The notes beneath the pieces are model-generated. The model saw nothing but the letters and a program-made list of their open reading frames with translations. It made no database searches and was not told the DNA's origin. The translations under genes and the position numbers were made by a program. DNA of 64,000 nucleotides from Bacteriovoracaceae bacterium (GTDB lineage: Bacteria > Bdellovibrionota > Bacteriovoracia > Bacteriovoracales > Bacteriovoracaceae): assembly GCA_947446575.1 (NCBI GenBank), contig CANFHC010000012.1, positions 1 to 64,000 of the forward strand, given 5' to 3'. Within the stretch, counting starts at the first letter, position 1. Each line of letters opens with the position of its first letter. Shown here one piece after another: positions 12,800 through 38,408 of the stretch.

Positions 12800-13212
12800 T
12801 TTTTTAAACTTAATTCACAAGTTATCGTGCTATCTTTTTTTACAATCGACATTTTGAGTTTATCACTTTCTTGGAGATAAAAATTAATCGATCTCTTAAA
12901 AGAAGGTGACTTCTTACATTTTGCAAGAATCTGCTGCTGATAACTTTCTCTGGTATGAATATTCTTAATTGTATATTGGCAATCTTTATCATCACTAACT
13001 AATTTTACAACTGGTGATTTGTAATTTTTGAAAATCAACTTTGCTCCAAGGATAAGATCTTCGCCATTAAGCTGCAAAGGACCTTCGAAGCAAAGTTCGG
13101 CATCTCCCTTAATTAGTTCATACAGTCCCGGATGAAAATCTAGAGACCAACTTTTGGTAGAGAATAAGAAAAGTAAAATCAATAAGTAAGTCTTTGGCAT
13201 TCTAAAAATCAT
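12796..13212 (-). CDS. Secreted hypothetical protein coupled to a lytic transglycosylase
   Basis: A 138-residue protein with a signal peptide (hydrophobic run YLLILLFLFSTKSWS) and a mature part of about 115 residues that looks beta-rich. It has four cysteines (for example ELCFEG, KDCQYT, AKCKK, TCELSL) and no motif I recognise. It is the first gene of a two-gene unit: its stop overlaps the start of the transglycosylase gene by 4 bases. A role as a partner or inhibitor of that enzyme is possible but is inference from position only. A second in-frame ATG at 13200 also gives a good signal peptide; the GGGA before the ATG at 13212 slightly favours the longer form. Confidence 0.65.
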   Translation of the reverse strand: MIFRMPKTYLLILLFLFSTKSWSLDFHPGLYELIKGDAELCFEGPLQLNGEDLILGAKLIFKNYKSPVVKLVSDDKDCQYTIKNIHTRESYQQQILAKCKKSPSFKRSINFYLQESDKLKMSIVKKDSTITCELSLKK

Positions 13213-13336
13213 GTTAATTATCCCATTTCATACATACTCGGCTCAAAAAAAATTAAACTTAAATCTTTTACTGTAGCAGGTAAGTAAGGCATTAAAAATG
13301 CAACAAAAACAGTCAATGAAGGGTGTTTAATTTTAC

Positions 13337-13450
13337 ATGCTTAATGAGCCAAATGGTAATTATACCATTTATTACCAAGCAGAAATGCCGTTCAATGAAA
13401 AAATCATAAAGGCAGCTTCCAATAAAGAATTAGTTAAAATTAAAAATTGA
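13337..13450 (+). CDS. Possible 37-residue small protein
   Basis: ATG at 13337 to TGA at 13448-13450 encodes 37 residues, including NGNYTIYYQAEMPFNEKI and ending KELVKIKN. The composition is protein-like, but I recognise no family. A GAAGGG site lies about 12 bases upstream, which is long. It may equally be a remnant of a larger gene. Otherwise this 331-base gap holds only the shared terminator at 13504-13535. Confidence 0.25.
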   Translation: MLNEPNGNYTIYYQAEMPFNEKIIKAASNKELVKIKN

Positions 13451-13503
13451 AAAATTCATTTTCCAAGGATAGAAATAAGTTACTCCATTGGGAGAATGTT
13501 TAT

Positions 13504-13535
13504 AAAAAAAGCCTGAATTACTTCAGGCTTTTTTT
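13504..13535. terminator. Bidirectional intrinsic terminator
   Basis: Arms AAGCCTGAA (13509-13517) and TTCAGGCTT (13522-13530) form a perfect 9-bp stem with a TTAC loop. It is flanked by an A-run on the left and a T-run on the right, so it works on either strand. It lies 9 bases past the stop of the KimA-like gene on the minus strand. Confidence 0.9.
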
Positions 13536-13543
13536 ATTGCTTT

Positions 13544-15367
13544 TTATAAGTGATATCTAATCGATGTAACAACTTTGCCGGTTTTAAGCCTCAGCGCCGT
13601 TCTCAATACTAACGTCATCTGATTATGTAAGAACTGATGATACCAGTGTCTCGTGATAAATTCTGGCACAACAACCGAAACCATATCCTTACCTGAGTCT
13701 ATATGGACTTGATCGATATAATCTAAGAGCGGGCCTAATACCGATCGATAAGGCGATTTTAAAATCTGTAGCGGAAGTCCTTGAGACCATTTCTCCCAGA
13801 CTTTTAACATTTTCTCAGTTGCATCTTTATCAACATCAACATAACAAACTCGCACATCATCAGAGATTGTTAGCGCGTATTGCACGGCCATAACAACACC
13901 TGGATGAATTCCAGAAATAGGAACGATCGCTGTGTATTTTTTCTGATCAACGATATTAATGTCTTGATGATAAGTATCGCGAGCAAGTTGGTGACCAACT
14001 CCAAGATAGTGGCGCTTAATTTGTTTAAAGAAAAAGACTAAACTTGGAATGAGTAAAACAATAATCCAAGCTCCGTGCATGAATTTTGTCACTGTGATAA
14101 CGATCAAAACGATAAACGTAGTAAAGGCTCCCATCGCATTAATGATGAGTCCTTTTTTCCAATGGGGTTCTCTAATTTTTTGATGGTGAACAATCATTCC
14201 TAATTGAGAAAGTGTAAATGAAAGGAAAACTCCAACTGCGTACAATGGAATCAGTAAGTGAGTCGAGCCTTTAAAGATGATCATTAAAAGGGCAGCTGAA
14301 ACAGTAAGACCAATAATTCCGTTAGAGAAAACTAAACGATCTCCGATGCTTGATAACTGGCGCGGTAAAAATCTATCCTTAGCTAGTAGAGAAGATAGTC
14401 TTGGAAAGTCGGCATAACTAGTATTAGCAGCAAGTAAGAGAATGAGGGCCACTGCTACTTGTGTTGCGTAATATAAAAAATTTGTTCCGAAGACAGATCG
14501 CGATAAAAGCGACATTACAGTTTCACCATGCACTGGAGTGATACCGTAAAGATGTGCCAACAAAGTAATCCCTAAAAAGAATACCCCTAAGATTGCTGAC
14601 ATCCAGATCATTGTGATTTTAGCATTTGATTGACTTGGCTTTTTGAAAATTGGCACACCATTAGAGATGGCCTCAATTCCTGTTAAGGCCGAACAACCTG
14701 AAGCAAAAGCACGCAGAAGTAAAAAGAGTGGGACTTCTGGATAATTTTCATGAAGAATTGGTGCGTGTTGAATTTCGGCGCCTGTAGCGATTTTATAAAA
14801 ACCTACAATTAATAAAAGCAGAACGCTGAAAATAAAAAAGTAAGTTGGGTAAGCAAAAATATTTGATGACTCTCTTATTCCGCGAAGATTGAGCGCCATA
14901 ATAACAATAATAATTAAGACGCCTATAATGACATTATGTTGGGCAATTAATGGAAATGCCGATCCAATGTTTTCCACTCCTGCGGAAACTGAAACGGAAA
15001 CAGTTAGAATATAATCTATAAGAAGAGCTGCTCCAGCAATTAAGCCTGCGGTCTCCCCTAGATTTTCCTTGGCAACCGTATAAGCACCACCACCATGCGG
15101 GTAAGCTGAAATCGTTTGTTGATAAGAAAGAGTGATAATAAGAAGTAATATCGCAACTCCCACCGCCATGGGCATTGACCACGCCATCGCTGCGACGGAT
15201 AGCGATAAAAGGGCAATTAAAACTTCTTCAGTAGCGTACGCCACAGAAGAAAGAGCGTCAGAAGATAAAACGGCCAAGGCCTTCCATTTAGGAATTTGTT
15301 CTTCCTCTAGTTTGTCCATTGTTAAAGGATCACCAATAAAGAACTGCTTCATCTTTACGAAAAACAT
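13544..15367 (-). CDS. kimA: KimA-like high-affinity potassium importer (APC superfamily)
   Basis: A 607-residue inner-membrane protein, the same length as Bacillus subtilis KimA (YdaO). It matches that family closely: KALAVLSSDALSSVAYATEE, AYPHGGGAYTVAKENLGE, LIAGAALLIDYILTVSVSVS and ALNLRGIRESSNIFAYPTYF. About 12 membrane segments precede a cytoplasmic C-terminal domain from about residue 450 (YTAIVPISGIHPGVVMAVQY). KimA is a proton-coupled K+ importer, in Bacillus inhibited by c-di-AMP at both RNA and protein level. The conserved cytoplasmic domain keeps this assignment more likely than a generic amino-acid permease. A GGTGA site supports the ATG at 15367. The leader just upstream carries a terminator-like hairpin, described separately. 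Transcription is divergent from nrdBA. Confidence 0.85.
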   Translation of the reverse strand: MFFVKMKQFFIGDPLTMDKLEEEQIPKWKALAVLSSDALSSVAYATEEVLIALLSLSVAAMAWSMPMAVGVAILLLIITLSYQQTISAYPHGGGAYTVAKENLGETAGLIAGAALLIDYILTVSVSVSAGVENIGSAFPLIAQHNVIIGVLIIIVIMALNLRGIRESSNIFAYPTYFFIFSVLLLLIVGFYKIATGAEIQHAPILHENYPEVPLFLLLRAFASGCSALTGIEAISNGVPIFKKPSQSNAKITMIWMSAILGVFFLGITLLAHLYGITPVHGETVMSLLSRSVFGTNFLYYATQVAVALILLLAANTSYADFPRLSSLLAKDRFLPRQLSSIGDRLVFSNGIIGLTVSAALLMIIFKGSTHLLIPLYAVGVFLSFTLSQLGMIVHHQKIREPHWKKGLIINAMGAFTTFIVLIVITVTKFMHGAWIIVLLIPSLVFFFKQIKRHYLGVGHQLARDTYHQDINIVDQKKYTAIVPISGIHPGVVMAVQYALTISDDVRVCYVDVDKDATEKMLKVWEKWSQGLPLQILKSPYRSVLGPLLDYIDQVHIDSGKDMVSVVVPEFITRHWYHQFLHNQMTLVLRTALRLKTGKVVTSIRYHL

Positions 15368-23994: not shown

Positions 23995-25101
23995 TTATTT
24001 AGCGAAAATTGATAACGGTGAGTACTGATAGACTCTGATACCGTACATCTGAACTAATTCCTTTTTAATAAGTTCTAGATGCTGATCTGTTACATCAGTA
24101 AATCCAGCTAAATCGCAATTAGAGACCCGTAAATAATACCGATTGACTACAATTGCTCCGGGATTCAAGGATGGACGTAGCATTTGCATGAAATTGCGCT
24201 CTAATTCACCTTTGAAATAGGATGGAACATCACTTAGAGATAGAAAGTCATAAGTTTTTAAACCACTGCTTAAATGAGCAATCATGTCTTCCGTTATATA
24301 AGTCGTCTTTGTCTGAGAATCTTTTATTCGTTGGTGAATTTCTTTTTGAGCTTCAATGGGAACTCCTGCGAGGGATTTAATTTTTCCGTAAAAGCAAAGA
24401 TGTAAAAAAAAACTTTTCTGCGCCAGATCCGTTGTAAAAAGTCGATCAAAGGCGTTTGAGTAAAATTCAAAATGAGATTCTTTTATATTTTTTTCAATAA
24501 AATGCCCTTTGTACAAAAGTGCATTAAACAAAGTTTTATTTCCAAGACAAAATAAGACTAACTTCCAGCGAGCATGGGGAAAACTTTCTTGGTAATATTT
24601 TTTTTGGGCATTTAGATCATCAAAGCGCAAAATATGATCAAAGTCAGCTCCCAGAATTGTTCTTGTTACTTTCGCCAAAACTTGAAATGTTCGTTCCCAT
24701 TTTCCTAAATACAGAACTGAAGTAAAATTAATCTCTGTAAAAACTTTGCTAAAAAAGTCTTTTACATCCTGATCAATATTTAATTGATTGAATATTTTTT
24801 TTCTTTTATCGCAAAAATTATCATCAGCGTATGGAAAATACCCCCAAAAGCATAAAAAATCCTCATAATCTAATTGCCGATAACTTGCCTCTCGAAGACT
24901 AGCTAGTCGAATTTGCTCTTGCGATAAATCCGCCAGAGTTAGATTTTCGGTAGTGCTTGAGCACAACGGTAACGCTCGCCCACCTGATCCACAGACACTA
25001 AAAATGGATTTTGGTTTGTAGTGATCGACTAATTTTATTTCTAGAGTTGTATCTTCATTACCAAGAGTATAATTAAGTCCACTAAAATATTTCTTGCTCA
25101 T
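23995..25101 (-). CDS. BtaA-like S-adenosylmethionine 3-amino-3-carboxypropyl transferase (DUF3419)
   Basis: A 368-residue protein of the DUF3419/BtaA family. The SAM-binding loop is SIFSVCGSGGRALPL (33-47), followed by LADLSQEQI (D58, the ribose-binding acidic position) and the very characteristic YRQLDYEDFLCFWG (74-87). BtaA transfers the aminocarboxypropyl group of SAM to diacylglycerol, giving diacylglyceryl-homoserine, the precursor of betaine lipid DGTS. The usual partner methyltransferase BtaB is not in the window. The start at 25101 overlaps the stop of the upstream gene by one base (TAATG), so translation is coupled. It is the last gene of the lipid operon. The acceptor here may differ from diacylglycerol. 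Confidence 0.75.
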   Translation of the reverse strand: MSKKYFSGLNYTLGNEDTTLEIKLVDHYKPKSIFSVCGSGGRALPLCSSTTENLTLADLSQEQIRLASLREASYRQLDYEDFLCFWGYFPYADDNFCDKRKKIFNQLNIDQDVKDFFSKVFTEINFTSVLYLGKWERTFQVLAKVTRTILGADFDHILRFDDLNAQKKYYQESFPHARWKLVLFCLGNKTLFNALLYKGHFIEKNIKESHFEFYSNAFDRLFTTDLAQKSFFLHLCFYGKIKSLAGVPIEAQKEIHQRIKDSQTKTTYITEDMIAHLSSGLKTYDFLSLSDVPSYFKGELERNFMQMLRPSLNPGAIVVNRYYLRVSNCDLAGFTDVTDQHLELIKKELVQMYGIRVYQYSPLSIFAK

Positions 25102-27149
25102 TACAATAATCCCTTTAATTTTTTTTGTGCATGCTCTCGACACAGATTGAACTCTTCATCTGTGATGAATCCATTGTGTCCCATAATTTGAGACAATCGC
25201 ACACCGTGCACATGGGCCAGCTTATCGATTTCGATAACTTTTTCGTAATCAATATTGCGCGAAAGAGTAAATGATTCGAATTTTCCTTCCATCGCAAGCA
25301 ATGCCGTTTCTGCTAAGCAGGCATAGACGATATTGCCTTCAAGCCCAATGTCTATTTCTATATTCACGTTATCTCCTGGAAGTTGAACTTCACCACTGGC
25401 AATAACAAGAACATCGGGTCTTTTAATGGCATCTTTTTCACTTATATCAAAAGGTCTTGAGACATCACAGATCACACAACCTGGTTTTACTTTCATAATA
25501 TCTAAAATGGTTTTTCCCTGGCCAGAAGTTGTCGTAATAATAAGATCGGATTCGAACGAATGGGCATCTGATTCAGTGGAGATAATAATATTAGCTTCAG
25601 GATTTATTTTTAAAATATCATCTTTAAGCTCGATTAATTTATAGGCCCTGGGAGCAACGAGAATAATATTTTTCCAACTAAGTGAGAGAACTTTTGCAGA
25701 CACAGCTCCGATACTTCCCGTGGCCCCTACGACCATCACAGTCCCTAGGAATTGATGATCCAACTTTTTTACAAAGCCTAGTTTTTCAACGGCCAGTTTA
25801 GCGGCCCACAACGTTGAAGCGGAAGAAAGTGAATTACCAGTTGTAACGGGAATGGGACTTAATCGATCGATTGTGACTCCAGCGTCACCTACAATTTTCG
25901 TATAGGCCCCTAGGCCCATAATCTTTGATCCGGCCTTTTGAGCTTTTTCGCAAAGTTTTAAAATTTTCTTATAAATAACGTCCGGCTCTTTCTCCATTAA
26001 TTTTTTTGGAGTTTCAGTAACTGCATAAATTAATCCTTCAACTTTTTTTCCATTTTTCTCACTGACAATTCCGTCAATTTTTCCATAATAAAAACCAGGG
26101 GACATTGATAGAAGCTCTTCAATCCCCGATTCAAAGGGTTTGGAGTATTCTTTACTAATGAACTTAAGACCAGGCAGCTTAAAAAGATACCGAGAGCTCA
26201 GTGGATGAATAACAAATGAAAAAATAGCTGTGTCACTATTGTCTTCATTTAATTTTTTTATTTCAGGAGCAAGTTTTAATTCTTCAACTAAAGAGACCAC
26301 ATCATCATCCTTCACTGGAGATCCTATGCCTTTTTTTAATTGCATGATGCCTTCTAAAATTGAGTAATTAATTTTAGAGTGGCTTGACAGTTGCGGCAAA
26401 CAAATCAGGGCTTCTTTAAGCCCTGCTTGTTTTAATTTTTCTTCTAATAAGGGCGAAACAATATCAATAATAAGAGTCTTTCCTTTTAGGTGTGAAAGAT
26501 TGAGAAAATGAATATTAGCTTCATTTCCTACTAAAATATCACAAGAGAGAAACTCATCTAGTGCTCTATTCATTTTTCTATTTGATTCAGAAAATGATGG
26601 CACATTGCTTTTTTTAATTTTGAGTCTTTTAAGCACTGGAGAAAGTGCTTTAAGGTATTGATCGAGTCCCTTACTGCTATGAAGATTAAATGGCATTTTT
26701 GTTAAAAAATAAGGATCGGCCATGACTAAATTATTCTCTAGGTCTTCTAACACTTCCACAAATGATTTCTGAAGTGCAGCAGAATAAAACCCAATTTTTC
26801 TTTTAGATAAAAAATTTTTATTTTTCAAATAAAAAAGTCTTAAGGCATAAGGAATATAAACATCTTTAATAATTTGACCATCTACAATCGGAGTAAATTT
26901 CGCCGATGTTTTTATTCTATAGGCATCAGGATGAAGGAAAAAACCTTTTTTAAATTTTATTTTTTGCGGTAAACCAGAAATACAAATAACATCACAAACT
27001 CCATCATATTTTTTTATAATACTTTCAGTTAATTCCATATCAAAATTTGTTGAGTACTGAGTGATACGATATGTAACTCCGTTAAATTCAACTTCTTCGT
27101 CAAAATTATAGTGATCTTGGGCAAAGGCCAAAGAAAGAATATGCTTCAT
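25101..27149 (-). CDS. Long-chain acyl-ACP reductase (AAR-like) with a novel N-terminal extension
   Basis: A 682-residue protein in two parts. Residues about 300-655 resemble the cyanobacterial aldehyde-forming acyl-ACP reductase: LGAYTKIVGDAGV and TTGNSLSSASTLWAA (substrate side), NAD(P)-binding VVGATGSIG (473-481), ISTESDAHSFESDLIITTTS, then YACLAETALLAMEG with C611 where AAR has its acyl-accepting cysteine, and a final RNIDYEKVIEIDKLAHVHGV. The first 300 residues have no family I know; a segment near 200-255 (ILVGNEANIHFL, KTLIIDIVSP) suggests a second, possibly inactive, Rossmann-like unit. AAR itself is only about 340 residues. The expected role is reduction of acyl-ACP or acyl-CoA to fatty aldehyde. 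The gene lies 18 bases after the SDR gene and is translationally coupled to the BtaA-like gene. Confidence 0.75.
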   Translation of the reverse strand: MKHILSLAFAQDHYNFDEEVEFNGVTYRITQYSTNFDMELTESIIKKYDGVCDVICISGLPQKIKFKKGFFLHPDAYRIKTSAKFTPIVDGQIIKDVYIPYALRLFYLKNKNFLSKRKIGFYSAALQKSFVEVLEDLENNLVMADPYFLTKMPFNLHSSKGLDQYLKALSPVLKRLKIKKSNVPSFSESNRKMNRALDEFLSCDILVGNEANIHFLNLSHLKGKTLIIDIVSPLLEEKLKQAGLKEALICLPQLSSHSKINYSILEGIMQLKKGIGSPVKDDDVVSLVEELKLAPEIKKLNEDNSDTAIFSFVIHPLSSRYLFKLPGLKFISKEYSKPFESGIEELLSMSPGFYYGKIDGIVSEKNGKKVEGLIYAVTETPKKLMEKEPDVIYKKILKLCEKAQKAGSKIMGLGAYTKIVGDAGVTIDRLSPIPVTTGNSLSSASTLWAAKLAVEKLGFVKKLDHQFLGTVMVVGATGSIGAVSAKVLSLSWKNIILVAPRAYKLIELKDDILKINPEANIIISTESDAHSFESDLIITTTSGQGKTILDIMKVKPGCVICDVSRPFDISEKDAIKRPDVLVIASGEVQLPGDNVNIEIDIGLEGNIVYACLAETALLAMEGKFESFTLSRNIDYEKVIEIDKLAHVHGVRLSQIMGHNGFITDEEFNLCREHAQKKLKGLL

Positions 27150-27167: not shown

Positions 27168-28193
27168 TTAAGCGAGATAAAGAAATAACTTCTCTTTATA
27201 ATCACTGTACATGCTCTTTTTGAGCTCGGGTAAATCCTCTATTGTACGTGTCTTATCGTAAGAGAGTTTCGAAAACATGAAAGGAATTAACTCTTTGGGA
27301 ATACCCAAGAGTTTAAGTAATGAATTGTGAACCGGGTTCTTCATTACAGGAATATACTGAGTTTTTAAGCATAAAGCTTGATTAATGTCTTCTAAAAATT
27401 CTTTAATCGTTGGTAGTTCTGAACTTATTAAATGATAGGTTTTCAGCTCTAAACTAAAATCTTCTCTAAGAATAAGGGCAACCATTGCTTGAGCACAATG
27501 ATCAACTGGTATTATTGGAAGTCTTGTTTTTGGGTTAAAACTTAAAGGCAAATAGGCAATTGTTTTTAAAAGAAGTGAGTGCTTTTTAAGAACACTCATA
27601 AAATAATAAGGTCCGTCACATTTATCCATTCGGCCTGTAACTGAGTCCCCAATGATAATTCCGGGACGAATTATTCTAATAGGAAGCTTACAATCACTTA
27701 GACCTTTTAGATCACGCACCATTTTTTCAGCATGATATTTAGTTTCTGAATAATAATCATTAAATTTTTTTCTTTCAGGGAAATGATCTTCTTCTAAAAA
27801 ATAGGTCTCTTCATCACCAACCGCTATAGTTGAAACATAAAAGAAAGCTTTTAGTTTTTTACAATTTTTAATAAGTCGTAATGTATTTTGAGTTCCAACG
27901 ACATTCTGTAAATAACATTCTGAATGCGATGCCATGACATCATAAAGGGCGGCTGCGTGAATAATAAAATCAACATTTTCGATAATATTATTATAATCCA
28001 CATTATTTTCAATCATTTGAGGATTAGTAATATCACCTTTAATTAATTTAACATTTTCAAGATCGCTAAATTTAGAAAATTCTGAGTTACGAGACAGAAT
28101 AAATATTTCTTTTACATCAAAATGTTTTAAAGCAATCTCGCGAACTAAATATTGCCCCAAAAAACCGGTGGCTCCTGTGATAAATATTTTCAT
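27168..28193 (-). CDS. NAD_binding_4/extended SDR reductase (fatty acyl reductase-like)
   Basis: A 341-residue extended short-chain dehydrogenase. The cofactor loop TGATGFLGQYLVREI sits at the very N-terminus. FFYVSTIAVGDE, YYSETKYHAEKMV (catalytic YxxxK) and RIIRPGIIIGDSVTG are as in the NAD_binding_4 group that includes fatty acyl-CoA reductases and thioester reductases. Expected roles are reduction of an acyl thioester, an aldehyde or a 3-keto group; next to an AAR-like enzyme, reduction of aldehyde to alcohol is a reasonable guess. The start at 28193 shares an ATGA overlap with the stop of the lipid-kinase gene; the longer frame to 28214 would lose this coupling. C-terminal residues 250-341 form the substrate lid. 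Confidence 0.78.
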   Translation of the reverse strand: MKIFITGATGFLGQYLVREIALKHFDVKEIFILSRNSEFSKFSDLENVKLIKGDITNPQMIENNVDYNNIIENVDFIIHAAALYDVMASHSECYLQNVVGTQNTLRLIKNCKKLKAFFYVSTIAVGDEETYFLEEDHFPERKKFNDYYSETKYHAEKMVRDLKGLSDCKLPIRIIRPGIIIGDSVTGRMDKCDGPYYFMSVLKKHSLLLKTIAYLPLSFNPKTRLPIIPVDHCAQAMVALILREDFSLELKTYHLISSELPTIKEFLEDINQALCLKTQYIPVMKNPVHNSLLKLLGIPKELIPFMFSKLSYDKTRTIEDLPELKKSMYSDYKEKLFLYLA

Positions 28194-29149
28194 ATTAATG
28201 AAACTTGAGTGCAAAGATTAATCATGTCTGTTTGATCTTTTGGAGAAAAAACAGAAAGAAAATTCGGATGACATCTAATATTCCATGAATTGGAATGGTT
28301 TAATATCTCTCCATCGCCAAAAAAAGCTAATGAGTCTTCGTCTAGTAAATCAATTTTGATTTTTTCTGTTTCAAAACTAATAAGATTTTTATCATCTTTG
28401 GGATAATGACCATGCAATATTTTTAAAATGCATTGAATGAGTTCAAGTCTATTTTGGTGCTTAAATATCGTTATATTAACTTTTCCATCTTGATGATTTG
28501 TATTGGGAGCAACAATAAAATCTCCCCCAAGTGCGGGTTGATTATTAACTAAAATTAACGGAGATAAAAGAATGTCATTATATTCTTCTGATTCAATTTT
28601 AAACTTATAACTTTTAATTTCTCTATTTAATAATTTTTTAGCCAAAAAAAGAGAGTAAATACTTTTGCCAGAAAACTTCATAAAACTTTTAAATTGAGGA
28701 TAAGCTGATCTTAATTCATTTATCTCGCGAGCTACTTCGGCCGCAAAGCCGAGGCCTCCGTTTGTGGCCATAAATTTTCCATTGATTCCAATAAGATCAA
28801 TTTTTTTCTTAACATTTTGACGGATTGTTTGAGTGATTTTTTTGATATTAGAGCTTGATCCTAACACACGAGCAAAATCATTAGCTGTGCCGCCAGGAAC
28901 AACTAAAAGGCTAACTTCTGTTCCCGCGAGTCTTTGAATAATTGTATTTACTGTACCGTCCCCACCTACAGAGAGGATAGCATCGATATTTTTTTCAATA
29001 TCGCTATCTAATTTTTCGTAGAGTTCTTCTAAATTACTCGGAGTCATGTATTCAACATTACTTCTAAAAAGAGCATTGTTTATTTGCTCTTGCCAGTCGT
29101 TTGCGCCATTTGAGGCCCTCTGATTTAAATAGACAGAGATGTTTTGCAT
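28190..29149 (-). CDS. Diacylglycerol-kinase-family lipid kinase
   Basis: A 319-residue soluble kinase of the DgkB/YegS/sphingosine-kinase superfamily. The nucleotide-binding loop is AILSVGGDGTVNTII and the second catalytic motif is VPGGTANDFARVLG. FMATNGGLGFAAEVAREI and the late LAFFGDGEIL complete the family pattern. It should phosphorylate a lipid hydroxyl such as that of diacylglycerol, an alkylglycerol or a long-chain base with ATP. Within this cluster it could charge the product lipid or recycle diacylglycerol. It follows a 102-base gap with an inverted repeat and is coupled to the SDR gene by ATGA. All key glycine motifs are intact. Confidence 0.88.
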   Translation of the reverse strand: MQNISVYLNQRASNGANDWQEQINNALFRSNVEYMTPSNLEELYEKLDSDIEKNIDAILSVGGDGTVNTIIQRLAGTEVSLLVVPGGTANDFARVLGSSSNIKKITQTIRQNVKKKIDLIGINGKFMATNGGLGFAAEVAREINELRSAYPQFKSFMKFSGKSIYSLFLAKKLLNREIKSYKFKIESEEYNDILLSPLILVNNQPALGGDFIVAPNTNHQDGKVNITIFKHQNRLELIQCILKILHGHYPKDDKNLISFETEKIKIDLLDEDSLAFFGDGEILNHSNSWNIRCHPNFLSVFSPKDQTDMINLCTQVSLI

Positions 29150-29251: not shown

Positions 29252-30274
29252 TTATAGACTGAGCTCTAAGATTTCATACAGATGGGTCCAAACAAGCTTC
29301 ATTTTTCTTCCGTAAGATTCACTTTGAGCTCCTTCTTTCACCATTGCTGCCACCATTTGATGTATCCCCATGTTTTGGGCCTTTACCAACGATAGATATA
29401 ATGAACCGTTCGAAATTCCAGAACCTCGGTGAAGCTTTGATATCCCAATGGTTTTAACTACTATGCAATCGTGTTCGATAAAATTGATGAAATACCCGAT
29501 TTTCTCTTTTTTTGGAGATAAAATAAAAAAGGAAAGACTAAAGTCTTCTTTTTTTGATTGTGCCACATAAAGAGATCGAAATGTATCAAAATCAATAGGT
29601 GTAGCAAGATAATTCTCATTGAAAATTTCAAGAGATAATTTATGGAGATCTCGCATATCCAATTCAGTTAATTCTTTGGGCATAAAATCTAGCGTATAAC
29701 CTAGACTCATCGCCTTTTCATAATCTGCTTTGGAGAGATCAATGATATTTTGTAATTCAGTATAACCTTTGGAAGAGAAAACTTGGTTTGTTACAAGACC
29801 ATGTTTTTTTAAAAGTGTGAAATATTCAAGAGGGCGGTCTGGTTCAAATGAAAAATAGGGGCCTTGATCTTTAAAGCTTAACAATCGATACGGAAGCCAC
29901 GTTGAAAAATTAATTGGCCCTAATACTTTTTTAGCGCCTTTGTCTTTACTCCAACCAGCAATCAGTTTCTTAAATTCTTCTAACACTACATCAACCTTCG
30001 AATTTTTATAATCAAAATCCAAAAGACCGAAATATGCTAAATCATCAAATGGCGTAAGACAAATCATTGAACGAAGTAATACAACACCTTCGTCTTTAAT
30101 AAGAAAAAAATCATGTGCCAAACTGTGAAGCTTGAAATACATACTTTCTAATTCAACAGGAAGTTTTTTTACCGCTGGATCATTTTTATAATAATCATTT
30201 GGAAAACTCGCAAATTCTAAAATAAAAGCTTTTTTATCAAGGCATTTGCTATAAAATTCAATTTGTAAGGACAT
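29252..30274 (-). CDS. GNAT-like acyltransferase-fold protein
   Basis: A 340-residue soluble protein that looks like a duplicated GNAT fold. The N-terminal half contains KKVLGPINFSTWLPYRLLS, typical of an uncharacterised GNAT-related family in which 'GPINFS' is conserved. The C-terminal half contains IVVKTIGISKLHRGSGISN, equivalent to the acetyl-CoA pyrophosphate loop (Q/RxxGxG/A), here RGSGIS. The expected chemistry is transfer of an acyl or aminoacyl group from a CoA, ACP or tRNA donor, but the substrate is unknown. The gene overlaps the end of the UbiA-like gene by 17 bases and belongs to the lipid operon. Confidence 0.65.
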   Translation of the reverse strand: MSLQIEFYSKCLDKKAFILEFASFPNDYYKNDPAVKKLPVELESMYFKLHSLAHDFFLIKDEGVVLLRSMICLTPFDDLAYFGLLDFDYKNSKVDVVLEEFKKLIAGWSKDKGAKKVLGPINFSTWLPYRLLSFKDQGPYFSFEPDRPLEYFTLLKKHGLVTNQVFSSKGYTELQNIIDLSKADYEKAMSLGYTLDFMPKELTELDMRDLHKLSLEIFNENYLATPIDFDTFRSLYVAQSKKEDFSLSFFILSPKKEKIGYFINFIEHDCIVVKTIGISKLHRGSGISNGSLYLSLVKAQNMGIHQMVAAMVKEGAQSESYGRKMKLVWTHLYEILELSL

Positions 30275-31121
30275 ATAAAATTCCTGAATAAAGAAAAACG
30301 ATTAGATTTAAGGTTGCAAGATGCTCTACTATTTTAAATTTTATTTTTCCATTATTCAGTGCGAGTAATCCACTCAACAAAATAACGATGGTGATATAAA
30401 AGAAATACTGATTTAAATTTTCTTGAAAAAGATAATGAATAGCAAATACATGTAAAATCAATAGCACTCCAACAATTTTAATGACTCCACCCATGCCATA
30501 AATATAACGGTATGTTTTTAAAAGTGGATGAGCATTAGGATCTAGTTTTCTACATACTTCATAGCTAAAAAACGCAAAAAGAACTGAAAAAGAATACACC
30601 CAGTCCATTCGTGAAAATGGCACTGAAACATTATTTCGATAGGTCGACATACAGTAAAGACAAAGTGTCACGAGAATTAATTGATGGGTAACTGCATAGA
30701 GAAGTGGACGTGCATTGATCCATTCAGCTACATAAAACTCTTTATACATCAACCACAAGTGTATGATGATTAAAGTATAAAACATGGTCGAAAACTTATA
30801 GTCTAACAAAAAAAGAAACGCATCAAAGGTGATTAATAATCCAATGCCTAGATTGATCCCGTTTTTAAATTGTGGCAAAGGAATTAATCCACGTGGAAGC
30901 GGTCTTGTTGGATGAGCAAGTATATCTTTTTCGTAGTCTTTATATTCATCCATCATACGAAGGACAATAAAAAATAAAAAATATCCTAAAAAAGATAGGA
31001 ACATATCAAACTTAGTTGGATGTGCAGATAAAAAATAACCTGAACTCACGGGGCCCATCGTGATTAATAGATAACTTGCAAGTGGAGTTCTTTCTTTAAA
31101 AAATATTAACCAGTTTTTCAT
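30258..31121 (-). CDS. UbiA-superfamily membrane prenyl/lipid transferase
   Basis: A 287-residue inner-membrane protein with about eight or nine helices. The first Asp-rich motif MMDEYKDYEKD (followed by the HPTRPLPRG block) is that of UbiA enzymes, which bind prenyl diphosphate through Mg2+. The second motif is weaker: CRKLDPNAHPLLKTYRY has only one aspartate where DxxxD is usual, which suggests a changed donor or acceptor. UbiA enzymes transfer polyprenyl groups to aromatic rings, haem or, in archaea and some bacteria, to glycerol-based lipids. The gene starts 3 bases after the AMP-ligase gene and overlaps the GNAT gene. The family is confident, the substrate unknown. Confidence 0.85.
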   Translation of the reverse strand: MKNWLIFFKERTPLASYLLITMGPVSSGYFLSAHPTKFDMFLSFLGYFLFFIVLRMMDEYKDYEKDILAHPTRPLPRGLIPLPQFKNGINLGIGLLITFDAFLFLLDYKFSTMFYTLIIIHLWLMYKEFYVAEWINARPLLYAVTHQLILVTLCLYCMSTYRNNVSVPFSRMDWVYSFSVLFAFFSYEVCRKLDPNAHPLLKTYRYIYGMGGVIKIVGVLLILHVFAIHYLFQENLNQYFFYITIVILLSGLLALNNGKIKFKIVEHLATLNLIVFLYSGILYVLTN

Positions 31122-31124
31122 TTT

Positions 31125-32543
31125 TTACCTATTTATCTTTTTTCCACCAGAGGCCAAGCGATCAATTCTTGCCCGATGTCTTTTGTCTTTAATTATTTTT
31201 GTTTCTGCTACTTTTGATATTTCAGGAAATGTTTTCTGCAAAGTACTTGCTTTGTCTTTTAGGTTTTCTCCCAGAAGAACAAGCTCGTTATTTAGAGTGC
31301 GATGAATAAAACTTAAGTCGTGATTAAGAAATTTATAGATCTTTTGCTCTAATTGAAAGTCTTCTGCATGAAGCTGCGAGCGCCCTTCATACCACCAATC
31401 TTTACTCTCATTATCAACTGCAATTCGATCCCCCATAAAATGCCAAATCTGACCTTTTGAATCGAGATATTTATTAAGTTCATTTTCTTTTTTATTGTTA
31501 AGATAAAAAGGACATACGTGAGGACCTGTTACCCACATACCGTTACTTTTATTTTCAGACTGAATTTCAGGAATAGGATTTCCTAGATGAAGAGCATGAA
31601 AATAATTTTTATCGAGTGATTTTTTAACTGAAACTCTCGCATCTACAATACAGACCGGCTCAACTTCGCTCGATCCATAAACGTGCATAATTTGGGTATC
31701 TTTATAAGTATTAAATAGCTCTTGAAATTGCGAACAAGGAGTGAGCGCACCTCCAATATGGATATCTTTAATATTTGATAAAGTAATCTCAGCATTCATG
31801 GCCTTCATAAACGCAGGGCCTGCAGTCATGGTTTCAATATTGTAAATTTTTGAAGCGCCCTCTAACCATTGGAAATTTTTTTTTGACCAATTAGTTGGAA
31901 AAAAAACAGTTGGTTTTCCCTGTGCCAAATTGAGAAGTGTCCAATTAGCAAAAATACAAAGATCACTTCCAGAAAAAGCATCAAAATGCAGGGATTTTTT
32001 TAAGACTTCAAATTGTCGTAAGAGATAACCTTGCTCTCGCACAACACCTTTTGGTGTCCCACTAGTGCCAGAGGTAAAAGTAATTATTCCAGGATTTTTT
32101 TCATCAATCGATTCCAAAATCAACTGAGAATTTTTTCCAGACAATAAAGTTCCGGGCCTAATCCAATGGGGAATTTGTCTTATTTCTGGAACCCTTAATC
32201 CCCAAAGATTACCTACCATTGAGCTGATAAAAATTTTGGGATTAACTATTTTAATTACTTCAGAAATGCGCTTAATTGGCATCCAGGGCTCAACTAAAAC
32301 AATACTGCCACCAAGGCCCAGAACTGCTAAAATAATAGCATATAAGTCTACTGTTGGCTCTGTAGCAATAAGAACAGAATCACCTGCTTTAAAGTTTTTA
32401 TCTATTAATGAGCTTTGGGCCCTAATGACTCTCTCACGCAGATCCGTAAAAGTATAAGTTGGCCCATTTGGTGATACAAAGGCCAATTGGTCTTTCATCT
32501 CAAGAGACTTTAATGCAAATAATTCTATACAGTTCATGCGCAC
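31125..32543 (-). CDS. Acyl-AMP ligase/AMP-dependent synthetase (OleC-like)
   Basis: A 472-residue adenylate-forming enzyme. The P-loop-like motif ITFTSGTSGTPKGVVRE (A3), MHVYGSSEVEPV (A5) and HFMGDRIAVDNESKDWWYEG (A7/A8) are clear. The C-terminal subdomain is short but keeps a late lysine in KTKIIKDKRH-like sequence near the end. The protein is shorter than acyl-CoA synthetases (about 550), and the FANWTLLNLAQGKPTVFFP and YGSSEVEPV stretches recall OleC, the beta-lactone synthetase of olefin synthesis. It should activate a fatty or hydroxy-fatty acid as an adenylate. The start codon is GTG with GAGGA 10 bases upstream; an ATG two codons on is the alternative. It is the first gene of the seven-gene lipid operon. 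Confidence 0.8.
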   Translation of the reverse strand: MRMNCIELFALKSLEMKDQLAFVSPNGPTYTFTDLRERVIRAQSSLIDKNFKAGDSVLIATEPTVDLYAIILAVLGLGGSIVLVEPWMPIKRISEVIKIVNPKIFISSMVGNLWGLRVPEIRQIPHWIRPGTLLSGKNSQLILESIDEKNPGIITFTSGTSGTPKGVVREQGYLLRQFEVLKKSLHFDAFSGSDLCIFANWTLLNLAQGKPTVFFPTNWSKKNFQWLEGASKIYNIETMTAGPAFMKAMNAEITLSNIKDIHIGGALTPCSQFQELFNTYKDTQIMHVYGSSEVEPVCIVDARVSVKKSLDKNYFHALHLGNPIPEIQSENKSNGMWVTGPHVCPFYLNNKKENELNKYLDSKGQIWHFMGDRIAVDNESKDWWYEGRSQLHAEDFQLEQKIYKFLNHDLSFIHRTLNNELVLLGENLKDKASTLQKTFPEISKVAETKIIKDKRHRARIDRLASGGKKINR

Positions 32544-32678
32544 ATTATCGTGATCCTCTAAAAAAAGATAAGAACTATCTTTTTAACCCGACAATAACGG
32601 TCAGAATAATTCACTACTCAATCTTACTTCCTTTCAACCGATAACTTTAGAAATCAATATCCCATGAAGGAAAGCACC

Positions 32679-35384
32679 ATGCTTAACACGAAACGTTTAT
32701 TAACTGTAACGAACAAAAGTACTTATCACTTTGCTAAAAAAGAAAGTGGTGGAAAAGGCTTCAATCTTTTTTTATTAAATGCTAACGGAGTAAATGTCCC
32801 AAGCTTTATCACACTACCTCCGAATTTTTTTGAATCATTTAAAGAATCAACAAAGATAAATGAATTTATTGAAAATATTTTTGTCGACCCACATCTATCC
32901 CTATTAGATATCTCAGAAAAAATACGTATGAAAATCGTAGAAACAAAATTTACTAAAGATTTAGAAGATCAAATCCAGACCATTTATAAAGATTTAAACA
33001 AAGATTTAATTTCTGTTCGATCAAGTGCGCACGACGAAGATAGTGCACTACACTCTTTTGCTGGTCAGCTTAGCAGTTTTCTTTATATCTCAGATTTTCA
33101 AAATGCATTAGCAGCGATTAAAGAATGTTGGGCATCTGCATACTCAGAGCGATCTTTACACTATCGAACGATCAATAAACTAGAGCTAAAAAATATTAAA
33201 GTTTCAGTTGTTCTTCAAGAAATGATTGATCCAGATATTAGTGGCGTCCTGTTTACATGTAATCCTGTAAATGGAAATAATGATCAAATATTCATCAATA
33301 GTGTTTATGGTGTCGGAGAAGGTCTCGTCTCTGGTCTTTTAGATGCTGACACTTATGTTATCTCGAAAATTGCTGGCGTAATGTTGGAAAAAACGATCGT
33401 TGAGAAAGCAAAAAAACTCATACGAGATAATTCAAATCAAAGATGTTTGGAAGTTGACGTTGAGAATTCTCTGCAAAATGCTGATTCTTTATCTTCAAAC
33501 GAAATAAAAAAAATTCATGCAATCGCTGCTAAAATTGAACTTTTTTATGGAAGACCTCAAGACGTTGAATGGGCCATTAAAGATGGTGAACTCTATATTT
33601 TGCAATCTAGACCAGTTACTACTGCAACAGAAAATAATCGAGGCATTCTCTATATTTGGGACAATTCTAATATTGTAGAAAGTTATGGTGGTATTACAAT
33701 GCCGCTAACTTTTGGTTTTGCTCACTACGTTTATCATGAGGTCTACGTTCAGTTTTGTGAAATTTTAGGTGTGCCTGAAAAAAGCATAAAAGAAATGGAT
33801 CGAAATTTAAACAATATGCTAGGTCTTTTTTACGGACGCGTTTATTACAATATTCTCAACTGGTATAAACTTGTGTCCATTCTTCCTGGTTTTAAAAACA
33901 ATCGTCAATTCATGGAAACAATGATGGGTACCAATGAAGGAATCTTAGATGAAGTCGCAGATCGGGTTCGTCCGGCAGATTTTCAAAATGGATTTGGAGC
34001 ACAATTTCGCCAATTCATCACTGGAATGAAATTCTTCTGGTTTCACCTCACTATCCAAAGTTTTGTTGATAAATTCCAAGCAGATTTTCACGTGGTCTAC
34101 GACAAATTTAGAAAAATTGATTACTCGCGATTATCGGCCGATAAAACATTCGAACATTTTCAAAAACTTGAAGACCAAATTTTAAGAAAATGGCATGCCC
34201 CCATTATTAATGACACACTCTGTATGGTCCATTACGGAACATTCAAAAAACTTACCAGCAAATGGTTAAGTCACTTGGGTGACGCTTTCTACAATGACCT
34301 ACTCGCTGGAAACGGTAATTTAGAATCGGCCGAACCAACTAAAAGGCTAATCATTCTCTCTGGTGTTGTTTCAAAAAATCCTGAATTAAAAGCACTTATT
34401 CTCACAACCCCCAATGAACATTGCTTAGAGGCCCTCAACCAATCAGAGTTTCAAGATTTTTATAAAATGGTTCTTGATTATATTGATCGATATGGATTTC
34501 GCTGTATGAGCGAAATGAAATTAGAACAAAAAGATCTCCACCAGGAGCCTGGTCTCTTTTTTATTTTCTTAAAAAATTTAATTAATTGCGGACAAACTGA
34601 TTTACATGAGTATGAAAAAAGAGAAAAAGATATTCGCAACAATGCTGAGGCTCTGTTAGAAAAAAATATTTCTGGCATTAAAAAAATTATCTATAAGTGG
34701 TCACTCAAACATGCTCGCAAGGCCGTTATGAATCGTGAGAATACAAGATTTTGTAGAACTCGCATCTATGGTGTTGTCCGCTCAATGTTTTATGCTATCG
34801 GTGAAGATTTTACTAAATCAAACATAATCGACAAAAAAGAGGATATTTTCTTTTTAAGTTTTGATGAATTCAAAGGAGCCTTTGAAGGAACTAATACAAT
34901 TCAAAATCTTCGTGCCGTTATCGAAGTTAGAAAAAAAGAATATGAAGGTTATAAGGATGTTGAACCAGCTCCTCGTTTCATCACAAGAGGCCCTGTCTAT
35001 TGGCAAAACATTCATACTGAAAAAATTGAAGAAGTGAAATTCGATGAATCAACTCTCCTTCCAAATCAAATGCGAGGAACACCTTGCTCTCCAGGAGAAA
35101 TCATTGGAGTGATTAAGGTAATCATGGGTCCTGATGACGATATGGTTTTAAATGGAGAAATCCTAGTTACAGATAGAACAGATCCTGGGTGGATTCCACT
35201 TTATCCTTCGTTATCAGGATTACTGGTTGAGCGCGGAGGACTACTTTCACATTCAGCAATCGTTGCTCGCGAAATGGGACTGCCTACTGTTGTTGGAATT
35301 AAGGGCCTCACAAAAAAATTAAAATCTGGAATGAAAGTTAAAATGAATGGAGAATCAGGAATTATAGAAATCCTCGAAGATTAA
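32679..35384 (+). CDS. Rifampin-phosphotransferase/PEP-synthase-type dikinase, substrate unknown
   Basis: A 901-residue protein with an N-terminal ATP-grasp domain of PEP synthase type (about 1-320): KESGGKGFNLFLL, LISVRSSAHDEDS, QEMIDPDISGVLFTCNP and DVEWAIKDGELYILQSRPV. The C-terminal phosphohistidine domain (about 810-900) has ERGGLLSHSAIVAREMGLP, whose histidine carries the phosphate. Between them lie about 480 residues of unfamiliar, helix-rich sequence in place of the PEP/pyruvate barrel. This is the layout of rifampin phosphotransferase, which moves the ATP beta-phosphate to a hydroxyl. Position opposite the lipid operon suggests a lipid or alcohol substrate. The inner ATG at 32679 is preferred because AAGGAA (32667-32672) precedes it; the ATG at 32664 has no such site. 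Confidence 0.82.
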   Translation: MLNTKRLLTVTNKSTYHFAKKESGGKGFNLFLLNANGVNVPSFITLPPNFFESFKESTKINEFIENIFVDPHLSLLDISEKIRMKIVETKFTKDLEDQIQTIYKDLNKDLISVRSSAHDEDSALHSFAGQLSSFLYISDFQNALAAIKECWASAYSERSLHYRTINKLELKNIKVSVVLQEMIDPDISGVLFTCNPVNGNNDQIFINSVYGVGEGLVSGLLDADTYVISKIAGVMLEKTIVEKAKKLIRDNSNQRCLEVDVENSLQNADSLSSNEIKKIHAIAAKIELFYGRPQDVEWAIKDGELYILQSRPVTTATENNRGILYIWDNSNIVESYGGITMPLTFGFAHYVYHEVYVQFCEILGVPEKSIKEMDRNLNNMLGLFYGRVYYNILNWYKLVSILPGFKNNRQFMETMMGTNEGILDEVADRVRPADFQNGFGAQFRQFITGMKFFWFHLTIQSFVDKFQADFHVVYDKFRKIDYSRLSADKTFEHFQKLEDQILRKWHAPIINDTLCMVHYGTFKKLTSKWLSHLGDAFYNDLLAGNGNLESAEPTKRLIILSGVVSKNPELKALILTTPNEHCLEALNQSEFQDFYKMVLDYIDRYGFRCMSEMKLEQKDLHQEPGLFFIFLKNLINCGQTDLHEYEKREKDIRNNAEALLEKNISGIKKIIYKWSLKHARKAVMNRENTRFCRTRIYGVVRSMFYAIGEDFTKSNIIDKKEDIFFLSFDEFKGAFEGTNTIQNLRAVIEVRKKEYEGYKDVEPAPRFITRGPVYWQNIHTEKIEEVKFDESTLLPNQMRGTPCSPGEIIGVIKVIMGPDDDMVLNGEILVTDRTDPGWIPLYPSLSGLLVERGGLLSHSAIVAREMGLPTVVGIKGLTKKLKSGMKVKMNGESGIIEILED

Positions 35385-35448: not shown

Positions 35449-36819
35449 TTAAAGGCTAAAAGCTATTGGTGATGGAAGAGGCAACACCATTGATTTATCA
35501 ACTTGGTGGTAACGAGAACCTGCCATTTTTTCATTAGCAGTAGGTGCAAGAATATCATTTTTAGATTGTGAAATTGCTTTTGTAATATCTAGTGTTCTTG
35601 AAAGTTCCGCCGCTCTAATCGCGCGAGCGCGGTTTACAAGACCAGACGTTTTAACTTTTCCAACTAACCACGGCTTTACATCAACAGTTTCCATGATGAT
35701 TTTTTTAATTTCTCTAAAGCCTAATTTAGGGTTGGCGTCTTTTACGGCGCCAGCGATGTTGGCAACATAAGGAGCTGCTTGAGAAGTTCCACTAACAGCA
35801 AGATAATTATTCATCGGAATTGTTGAAAGAATACCTACTCCAGGAGCAGCCACTTCTACGTTTTTAGCTCCATAGCAAGAAAAGTTTGCCAGTGCTTGGT
35901 CACCTAAAGTCGCAGCTACTGAAATTTTATTTTCAGCTTCAACGTTTGTTGGAGAAGATGGTACTTCATCATTGTTAGATCCTTCATTTCCAGCTGCAAA
36001 AACAAAAAGTGTATTTGGAGCAGATGATAAGAATTTTTTTGTTTCAGCAAGATTTACTGTAAAAAAATGATTTGTGTATAACTTCAATTCGTCAGCAGTA
36101 GGATCTTTTTTGAAAAAAGTTTTATAGAGTTGAGAGATAACTCCAGAGATAGCATCGTATGAAGTACCAAATGATCCGTTCATAACATCAGCTTTGGTTC
36201 CGTTGATGTATCCACCAATTTCTACATAAACCTTAGTCTGTTGTTGAGCTAAAGCAGTAAGGGCTGCCTTTAGAAGTGTTTCTTTAATTCCACCTTTATC
36301 TGCCAGTTGAACAAATTTAGAGTTTTTTCCAGGAACTTTTACTTCCGTTGGAATAAGTTTAATACCAATGGCGCGAGCTTCTGGTGAATTTTTCACGGCA
36401 ATCCCAGTTACGTGAGTTCCGTGCATCCAGTTTCCAAAAATTTGAAGATTTTTAATAAATGCTTCATCTTTAAATTTTTCTCTGGCCCAATCACGCTCTT
36501 CTGTAGTGATTGTTCCAAGAAAAGATTTTAATTGAATATCAAAAAACTTTCTAGCGTCAGGTGTATTGGAATTCGCGTATGAGTAATCAACAAGTGTGTT
36601 ATTGCCTTCAGCAAAGTTCCATCCATTGACATCATCAGGATATCCATTCTTATCTTCGTCGCGATCGTTTGAGGGAATTTCCAAAGGATTAACCCAAGCT
36701 TTGTTTACAAGATCTTGGTGTTTAAAATCGTTACCCGAATCAACAACTGCAATAATTGCTGAATTCGCCGACTGAACTGATAAAAATAAAAGAACTGCTA
36801 AAAAATTAAGTTTTGTCAT
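35449..36819 (-). CDS. Secreted subtilisin-like protease without propeptide
   Basis: A 456-residue S8 peptidase. The ATG at 36819 is chosen because it opens a signal peptide (MTKLNFLAVLLFLSVQSANS) and has AGGAG 7 bases upstream. The catalytic triad is complete: D27 (AVVDSGND), H133 (MHGTHVTG) and S346 (SGTSQAAP), with oxyanion N278 (AAGNEG). The aspartate comes only about 7 residues after the signal peptide, so the usual inhibitor_I9 propeptide is missing. The segment after D27 has the Asp-rich DRDEDKNGYPDDVNGWNF typical of this S8 subgroup. About 60 C-terminal residues after the catalytic domain are polar and of unknown role. The next gene upstream is a paralogue. Confidence 0.92.
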   Translation of the reverse strand: MTKLNFLAVLLFLSVQSANSAIIAVVDSGNDFKHQDLVNKAWVNPLEIPSNDRDEDKNGYPDDVNGWNFAEGNNTLVDYSYANSNTPDARKFFDIQLKSFLGTITTEERDWAREKFKDEAFIKNLQIFGNWMHGTHVTGIAVKNSPEARAIGIKLIPTEVKVPGKNSKFVQLADKGGIKETLLKAALTALAQQQTKVYVEIGGYINGTKADVMNGSFGTSYDAISGVISQLYKTFFKKDPTADELKLYTNHFFTVNLAETKKFLSSAPNTLFVFAAGNEGSNNDEVPSSPTNVEAENKISVAATLGDQALANFSCYGAKNVEVAAPGVGILSTIPMNNYLAVSGTSQAAPYVANIAGAVKDANPKLGFREIKKIIMETVDVKPWLVGKVKTSGLVNRARAIRAAELSRTLDITKAISQSKNDILAPTANEKMAGSRYHQVDKSMVLPLPSPIAFSL

Positions 36820-36956
36820 CCACTGACTCCTTTCTCGATAACCATTATGGTATTGCTTAAATAGTGCGCTCAAGGATCTTTTTAATCCATGCTATATTTC
36901 TGACTAAACCTTACCATTGTGCAAAGCTCTGTCCGACATATATCCACCCTGGGAAT

Positions 36957-36980
36957 AAAAAAGGCCCACTTACGTGGGCC
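36957..36980 (-). terminator. Intrinsic terminator of the second subtilase gene
   Basis: On the minus strand GGCCCAC (36980-36974), loop GTAA, GTGGGCC (36969-36963), then TTTTTTAT. It lies 45 bases after the stop at 37026 and separates the two subtilase genes. Confidence 0.88.
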
Positions 36981-37025
36981 TCTTGCTAATCCATTACATT
37001 CTTGGGTGAAAGTATTGAAAAATAT

Positions 37026-38408
37026 CTATTTTTTAATTAGTAAGCTTGGACGAATTGGCTTGAATGCAAATCCTAATCCTGCTGGTTTAATCGATAATGA
37101 TTTCTCAACAGGAACATCAATAATGATTACGCGAGCATTCGAAATTGCTAAATCAACTGTAGTTGTTTTTGCTAATTGCGCCGCTTTTAACGCACGTGGT
37201 TTATTTACAATTCCAGAAGATTTAACTTTTCCTTTTAACCAAGATTTTACATCAACAGTTCCTACAAGAATAGCTTTCAAATCGCGAGCGGATAAAGCTG
37301 GATTCACATCTTTCATTGCTGCGATAATGTTTGTTACATATGGAGTCGCTTGGCTTGTACCACTAAGAGGAATATATGTATTAGTTGGCGCAGTTGAAAT
37401 AATGGCAACACCAGGTGCTGCAACATCGACCTTAGTTGCTCCGAAATTAGAGAAGTCAGCAAGAGATTTATAACCTAGGGTTGCTGCTACAACAATTTTA
37501 TTATCTGCAGGAATATCTGCTGGGTAATCAGGAAACAAATCATTATTAGAAGAATCGTTGCCAGCGGCGATTGTAAAAATTGTATTCGGCGCAGCTGCAA
37601 ACATTTTTGGACCATCAAGCATAATTTGGCCGAAATAAGCTTTTAATAAAGTATCCATCTCTTCTTTTGTAGGCACGCGTTTAATTTCTGCGATAAAACC
37701 TGATTGAATAAAATTAGTAGCATCACCATAACCAATTCCAAAAGATTGGTTAACAACATCAACTTTGTGTTGATTAATAATAGTATGAAGTCCAATCATT
37801 TCTGTAATTTGTTGAGCGGCACTATCTACAACTTCTGCTTTATATTCATCAAAAGTTTTTGTCACTTCTGTATTATCTTTATTAGGATTAGGTGCAACTT
37901 TAGGAGCGTTAGGATCTACTTTTACAAGTTCAGTATAAACCGTCGGAATGATTTTCATCGCAAGAATTTTTGCTTGTGAATTATTTAGTGCCGAAATTCC
38001 TGCCACGTGTGTCCCATGTATATAGCCACCAATGAAGTTAACTTTATTCATTAGGTCTTGGTCTTGATTATGTGATTTAAGCCACACTAATTCGGCTGAA
38101 GTCGATTTACCCATTTCATAATGACTGTAATAGCTGAAGAATGTTTTAACATCATCAGTGATTAAATAATTGTATTTGTCGTTGAAAACTTTAGGTGAAT
38201 TCTCAGTGAAATCCCATCCATTAATATCGCCTGGAAGGCCATCGTTATCTAAATCTACTGTACTTCCAATTTGCTCAAATCTATTAATCCACGCTTTAGG
38301 GGCAAGATCTTTATGAGAGATGTCTGTACCAGAATCCATAACTCCAATTAATGAAGCATTTGCAGAACTAAATTGCACAAGGGCAAGTAAAGGGATTAAA
38401 ATTTTCAC
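37026..38408 (-). CDS. Secreted subtilisin-like protease, tandem paralogue
   Basis: A 460-residue S8 peptidase related over its whole length to its neighbour. The signal peptide MKILIPLLALVQFSSANA runs almost straight into the catalytic aspartate D25 (GVMDSGTD), so it also lacks a propeptide. H131 (IHGTHVAG), N284 (AAGNDS) and S352 (SGTSQATP) complete the active site. A longer, charged insert rich in Pro, Asn and Lys at about 160-195 distinguishes it from the first copy. The two have separate transcripts, since a terminator lies between them. Likely roles are secreted proteolysis of prey or environmental protein; this is inference from the general profile of the region. Confidence 0.92.
   Translation of the reverse strand: MKILIPLLALVQFSSANASLIGVMDSGTDISHKDLAPKAWINRFEQIGSTVDLDNDGLPGDINGWDFTENSPKVFNDKYNYLITDDVKTFFSYYSHYEMGKSTSAELVWLKSHNQDQDLMNKVNFIGGYIHGTHVAGISALNNSQAKILAMKIIPTVYTELVKVDPNAPKVAPNPNKDNTEVTKTFDEYKAEVVDSAAQQITEMIGLHTIINQHKVDVVNQSFGIGYGDATNFIQSGFIAEIKRVPTKEEMDTLLKAYFGQIMLDGPKMFAAAPNTIFTIAAGNDSSNNDLFPDYPADIPADNKIVVAATLGYKSLADFSNFGATKVDVAAPGVAIISTAPTNTYIPLSGTSQATPYVTNIIAAMKDVNPALSARDLKAILVGTVDVKSWLKGKVKSSGIVNKPRALKAAQLAKTTTVDLAISNARVIIIDVPVEKSLSIKPAGLGFAFKPIRPSLLIKK

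Follow-up and report, generated by a model that had tools for sequence, protein, structure and literature searches.

A putative AAR-type thioester reductase fused to an unnamed domain lies in a conserved operon, probably for lipid synthesis, in Bdellovibrionota

Introduction

Cyanobacteria form fatty aldehydes with acyl-ACP reductase (AAR). In AAR and in GluTR, the acyl group is passed to an active-site Cys and is then reduced with NADPH (PMC8341465). For PigE, lysate experiments support thioester reduction, and the purified enzyme supplied with NAD(P)H showed none (PMC8341465). Another described enzyme, the bifunctional fatty acyl-CoA reductase of Marinobacter (maFACR), reduces aldehydes to alcohols in its N-terminal half, where the catalytic residues are Ser126, Tyr152, and Lys156 (PMC7573125). 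The PRK07201 profile has been used for AcrB (PMC11948995), which is the basis on which we equate PRK07201 with the AcrB/maFACR type. Here, we analyze a stretch of 64,000 nt from a Bacteriovoracaceae bacterium (GenBank assembly GCA_947446575.1, contig CANFHC010000012.1, positions 1 to 64,000), hereafter the window, for which a preliminary description made from the sequence alone had proposed an AAR-like reductase fused to a 300-residue unknown domain.

Results

The proposed ORF at 25101-27149 is real, with exactly these limits, and lies on the minus strand. Read from 27149 to 25101, it codes for a protein of 682 aa; the plus strand across the same interval is full of stops. Its parts are as follows.

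25101..27149, minus strand: fusion gene (682 aa), an N-terminal unnamed domain followed by a predicted C-terminal AAR-type reductase, from the ORF call and homologues
26244..27149, minus strand: N-terminal domain (residues 1-302), unnamed family, delimited by the model, conservation, and stand-alone homologues
25101..26243, minus strand: C-terminal domain (residues 303-682 and stop), predicted AAR-type thioester reductase, from sequence and fold
25707..25727, minus strand: GATGSIG (residues 475-481), predicted nucleotide-binding loop, aligned with GATGDIG of AAR
25317..25319, minus strand: Cys611 codon, putative acyl-thioester nucleophile, from its alignment with AAR Cys294 and its invariance

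Both signatures on which the AAR assignment had been based, GATGSIG and YACLAE (residues 609-614, containing C611), are present. When 50 fused homologues were aligned, glycines 475, 478, and 481 and C611 were all invariant. A phmmer search of PDB sequences returned PigE (4ppm, E 3.6e-22) and AAR (6jzq, E 6.6e-10), and the likeness to AAR is not a matter of chance. In the alignment to 6jzq, C611 aligns with AAR Cys294, an equivalence obtained by counting the printed residue numbers of the alignment. The curated models were matched below their cut-offs, both TIGR04058 for cyanobacterial AAR (E 3.3e-15, 56.2 bits, or 58 bits in the genome search, versus 449.7) and NF053554 for PigE (E 2.9e-44, 151.6 bits versus 850, with the reductase region alone matched). 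Because these scores are far under the AAR and PigE cut-offs, the enzyme may act on something other than a long-chain acyl group. In sequence, the domain is nearest to the reductase half of PigE, and no match was found to an aminotransferase such as the class III domain that follows the reductase in that protein. Pfam gave Rossmann matches for the C-terminal domain, all of them sub-threshold. FcrA, an HMG-CoA reductase-like acyl-CoA reductase, was considered as an identity and rejected, as it belongs to a different family.

The AlphaFold model of the full protein has a mean pLDDT of 87.7 and a pTM of 0.61. Its C-terminal domain matches AAR 6jzq with a Z of 33.1 (330 residues, 3.1 Å); AAR and carmabin TAD entries score Z 32-33 over 327-347 residues, and the next folds score ∼14. 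Sequence, predicted fold, and active-site alignment therefore all agree with the preliminary description for this half, and support the prediction of an AAR-type thioester reductase in residues ∼303-682. The opposite outcome that it had named, a fold from another Rossmann family with C611 away from the active site, was looked for, and the domain was instead placed with AAR and C611 on Cys294.

The N-terminal 300 residues had been reported as unrecognizable. This stands with respect to family models, since there is no Pfam match above threshold and no NCBIfam match, but not more generally, since the domain belongs to a widespread family and AAR is its best fold match by VIA structural comparison. 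Stand-alone relatives likewise match nothing above threshold in Pfam or NCBIfam, a profile of the domain finds nothing relevant among PDB sequences, and a viral structure library yielded nothing with an E of 0.001 or below. Modeled alone, the domain has a pLDDT of 92.5 and a pTM of 0.90. AAR and TAD account for all of the best eight VIA entries (Z 10.5-11.4), in which residues 1-302 are matched to AAR over its entire length. Solute-binding proteins come next on the same residues (Z 10.3 to 9), so that over the whole domain AAR at 11.4 leads solute-binding proteins at 10.3 by a gap within the error of the VIA method. Foldseek ranked a solute-binding protein first.

These results bear on two readings of where the domain comes from. 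It is probably a degenerate AAR-like half that lacks the catalytic Cys and the glycine loop, the conserved versions of which are absent from this domain in the 50 fused homologues; we hold this view with moderate confidence, at slightly better than an even chance. The eight leading VIA entries argue for it, as does a comparison of N- and C-terminal profiles, in which a TPxxDG segment aligns in the expected register with the PVTTG segment preceding the nucleotide loop. The local match (residues 85-111 with the PVTTG helix) has a P of 0.016, and the global score is higher than in all 40 column shuffles and in 39 of 40 block shuffles. That global alignment disappears once stand-alone sequences are added, and duplication is therefore not proven by sequence. 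The same loss, together with the solute-binding proteins that score nearly as well and top the Foldseek list, and the occurrence of the domain alone in Chloroflexi, would fit a ligand-binding domain of separate origin that has a common Rossmann-like or solute-binding-protein shape and was acquired by fusion. We treat this as a tenable alternative with somewhat under an even chance, in view of the AAR and TAD entries, the register of the two segments, and the shuffling results.

The fused domain is not peculiar to the source genome but represents an unnamed family that is widespread, occurring in fusions in several phyla and also on its own. The query has matches, mostly full length, in 98 of 291 Bdellovibrionota genomes, the weakest of which include PigE-like reductase-aminotransferase proteins. 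Among named homologues, the closest comes from a Bacteriovorax sp. MAG and is 87% identical, and near-full-length relatives with ∼32-37% identity occur in Gordonia, Nocardioides, Herpetosiphon, Chloroflexus, Vreelandella, Inhella, Endozoicomonas, and others. Plasmid records gave matches to the reductase domain only, mostly in aminotransferase fusions, and none covers 80% of the query. Stand-alone ORFs of ∼300 aa were found with the N-terminal profile in Chloroflexi (a sample of the Herpetosiphon phylum), where the neighboring genes (histidine kinase, NTP-transferase, PAP2, and MFS) point to no function; such proteins may carry the annotation "quinate 5-dehydrogenase." A few Bdellovibrionota genomes carry stand-alone paralogues of the domain as well, including 318-aa proteins encoded away from the fusion in the same genomes (L070:8887-9843 and L071:2995-3951).

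The fusion gene is flanked on the same strand by genes for predicted lipid enzymes, next to which lies a second module.

23995..25101, minus strand: DUF3419 protein (PF11899, 94.8 bits, cut-off 28.2)
27168..28193, minus strand: SDR akin to the aldehyde-reductase half of AcrB/maFACR (PRK07201; S/T-Y-K)
28190..29149, minus strand: diacylglycerol kinase-like lipid kinase (PF00781, 66.3 bits, above cut-off)
29252..30274, minus strand: possible acyltransferase-like protein without a Pfam family, neighboring module (GNAT label by inspection only)
30258..31121, minus strand: UbiA-type prenyltransferase-like membrane protein, neighboring module (PRK13592, E 6.3e-12, below cut-off)
31125..32543, minus strand: AMP-forming acyl ligase, neighboring module (PF00501, 93.8 bits)
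32664..35384, plus strand: PEP synthase-like protein (906 aa), divergent, neighboring module (NF004881, 1037 bits, cut-off 883)

Two starts were reassigned. The DUF3419 gene likely starts at the Met at 25101, the listed GTG ORF starting at 25143, and the SDR start was set at Met8 of a TTG ORF (27168-28214), so that the SDR and kinase genes overlap by 4 nt. The order diacylglycerol kinase, SDR, and AAR on one strand is found in all 35 Bdellovibrionota loci with enough flank. Near the fusion in these loci are also genes for DUF3419 (31/35), PEP synthase-like (27/35), UbiA (25/35), and AMP-ligase (24/35) proteins. The loci span several families but were chosen by homology, several being from one genus, and hence do not amount to 35 independent events. 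SDR and AAR genes are codirectional in every adjacent case, most commonly with a 4-nt overlap. Outside Bdellovibrionota, neither the kinase nor the DUF3419 gene adjoins the fusion and the SDR is also absent beside most such loci, although SDR-AAR pairs exist in Gordonia and Nitriliruptoraceae.

The DUF3419 protein, which has no match in the PDB, is a candidate BtaA-like transferase, which would move a 3-amino-3-carboxypropyl group from SAM onto a lipid; PF11899 is the family of BtaA, a maker of betaine-lipid precursors. The SDR matches PRK07201 with an E of 2.4e-55, covering positions 1-349 of 657 only, and the Gordonia SDRs beside AAR match the same half (1.7e-75 and 1.5e-73). A single chain with two SDR halves, as in PRK07201-type proteins, was not found here, the AAR-type protein not having an SDR fold. 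The catalytic set of the SDR is Thr129, Tyr155, and Lys159 (YxxxK), with S/T, Y, and K kept in 107 of 107 aligned sequences, and its spacing equals that of Ser126, Tyr152, and Lys156 in maFACR. This extended SDR could act on another substrate.

No aldehyde-deformylating oxygenase (ADO) had been seen nearby, and the same is true genome-wide: PF11266 has no match in the source genome (3.39 Mb, 95.5% complete) or in 17 other Bdellovibrionota, while the Synechococcus elongatus control was matched. Wax-ester synthase (PF03007) has no match in the 18 genomes, in a search in which no control matched either.

In Bdellovibrio-type genomes, genes for a LolA-like protein and for an FtsX-type permease with an ABC ATPase adjoin the operon (L036:6278-8041 and 12575-14460), which hints at possible lipid export to the outer membrane. 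In one lineage, a cytochrome P450 gene and a metallo-beta-lactamase-fold gene lie between the fusion and the ligase (L067:7466-9663). At 29252-32543, the window has the GNAT-labeled gene, the UbiA gene, and a gene for a short AMP-ligase (472 aa). These differ from what other members of the same genus have next to a PEP synthase-like gene nearly identical to that of the window, namely a formyltransferase-like gene and one for an 807-aa ligase (L052); the module thus seems to have been swapped. Further on, at 35449-38408, are two adjacent similar ORFs of 474 and 460 aa that, by inspection only, look like secreted subtilisin-type proteases. In a genome from another Bdellovibrionota family (G102), an 889-aa protein combining aminotransferase-like and PigE-like reductase parts is encoded between two PEP synthase/PigC-like genes, all below curated cut-offs (L050:6681-13958), a region that resembles a prodiginine- or tambjamine-type cluster. 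For the locus of the fusion, a prodigiosin-type cluster was rejected because the fusion has no aminotransferase and the PEP synthase-like gene is below the PigC cut-off.

Discussion

The best explanation for this locus, and one that we consider fairly probable, is a two-part acyl-thioester reductase that works with the SDR in a route to alcohol for lipid synthesis. An acyl chain would be transferred from acyl-ACP or acyl-CoA to C611 of the C-terminal domain, where NAD(P)H bound in the GATGSIG loop would reduce the resulting thioester so that a fatty aldehyde leaves the enzyme. The N-terminal half would probably have lost catalysis and may have a structural, docking, or chain-guiding role. The co-transcribed SDR would most likely convert this aldehyde to a fatty alcohol. 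In the same operon, the lipid kinase and the BtaA-like transferase could then incorporate the alcohol, or a lipid that contains it, into a lipid. The predicted fold, the active-site equivalence, the conservation, the gene order, and the finding of no ADO are observations, from which we infer substrate, redox cofactor, SDR step, and end product. Because a conserved lipid gene set and a relative of an aldehyde-to-alcohol enzyme adjoin the fusion, its product most likely goes into membrane lipids and not into hydrocarbons. The suggestion in the preliminary description that aldehyde is made for something other than alkanes is thus in line with a conserved operon in which a lipid kinase and a BtaA-like transferase accompany an SDR of the aldehyde-reductase type. 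More speculatively, and in our view doubtfully, the degenerate and active AAR halves of one chain would form, together with the aldehyde reductase, a Cys-based route to fatty alcohols encoded by two genes, and this route would lead to an undescribed alkyl-chain lipid of Bdellovibrionota, bearing a SAM-derived, homoserine-like head added by the BtaA-like enzyme.

The aldehyde might instead itself be the building block, undergoing amination or condensation as with PigE and TamH, the SDR then acting elsewhere in the pathway. That PigE is the nearest family by sequence fits this, as do the matches of the neighboring PEP synthase-like protein to PigC and RedH ligase models (below cut-offs) and the PigE-like reductase-aminotransferase proteins of other Bdellovibrionota, such as that in L050. 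However, an aminotransferase is missing both from the fusion and from its conserved partners, and the partner that is conserved and co-transcribed is an SDR of the aldehyde-reductase type, which makes this possibility unlikely. An alkyl ether or plasmalogen-type lipid, made as in the myxobacterial Elb route with the fusion replacing the FAR1-like domain of ElbD, seems quite improbable to us: the operon has no recognized alkyl-DHAP synthase or acyltransferase, and its protein families are unlike those of Elb, even though functions for acyl reduction, ligation, SDR chemistry, and lipid phosphorylation are found close together, ElbD combines a reductase with a ligase domain, and ether lipids require ElbE, a protein of the NAD-dependent epimerase type (PMC9131029).

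An AAR-like reductase outside cyanobacteria is indeed present here, as first noted, but is not new as such, since PigE, TamH, and carmabin TAD precede it. Within the libraries and open papers searched, the novelty lies in the family of fusions, in the unnamed domain that it carries, and in the conserved operon of lipid genes, the fusion not being described in the open-access literature searched. Cyanobacterial AAR (TIGR04058; 6jzq and 6jzy) has the C-terminal fold predicted here, the nucleotide loop, and the same position of the catalytic Cys, but shares only ∼24% identity over the aligned domain, and differs from the protein reported here, which has an extra 302-residue N-terminal domain and no ADO partner. 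PigE and TamH, of prodiginine and tambjamine synthesis, are closest by sequence and have the same Cys (PMC8341465), but their reductases are fused to a PLP aminotransferase, whereas the present chain stops at residue 682. Carmabin TAD (9e4s and 9e4u) has this fold in common with the C-terminal domain (Z 33.2, 346 residues), but is the terminal domain of a peptide assembly line and is 18% identical to it. With maFACR/AcrB, the overall reaction is likely alike, from acyl thioester to aldehyde to alcohol, and the neighboring SDR corresponds to the N-terminal half of those enzymes. However, the acyl-CoA reductase half of maFACR is an SDR that forms no Cys intermediate, in place of which a separate, Cys-based AAR-type gene would serve here. 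The myxobacterial Elb operon likewise brings an acyl reductase together with ligase and epimerase/SDR functions to make a membrane lipid (PMC9131029), yet the FAR1-like reductase, ACP, and acyltransferase domains of ElbD belong to families not found here. The protein defines two unnamed families, one of long AAR-type reductases, which is widespread across several phyla and tied in Bdellovibrionota to a conserved lipid operon, and one of a domain for which neither Pfam nor NCBIfam has a model. If our reading is true, AAR chemistry, paired with ADO in cyanobacteria, serves the building of membrane lipids in these bacteria.
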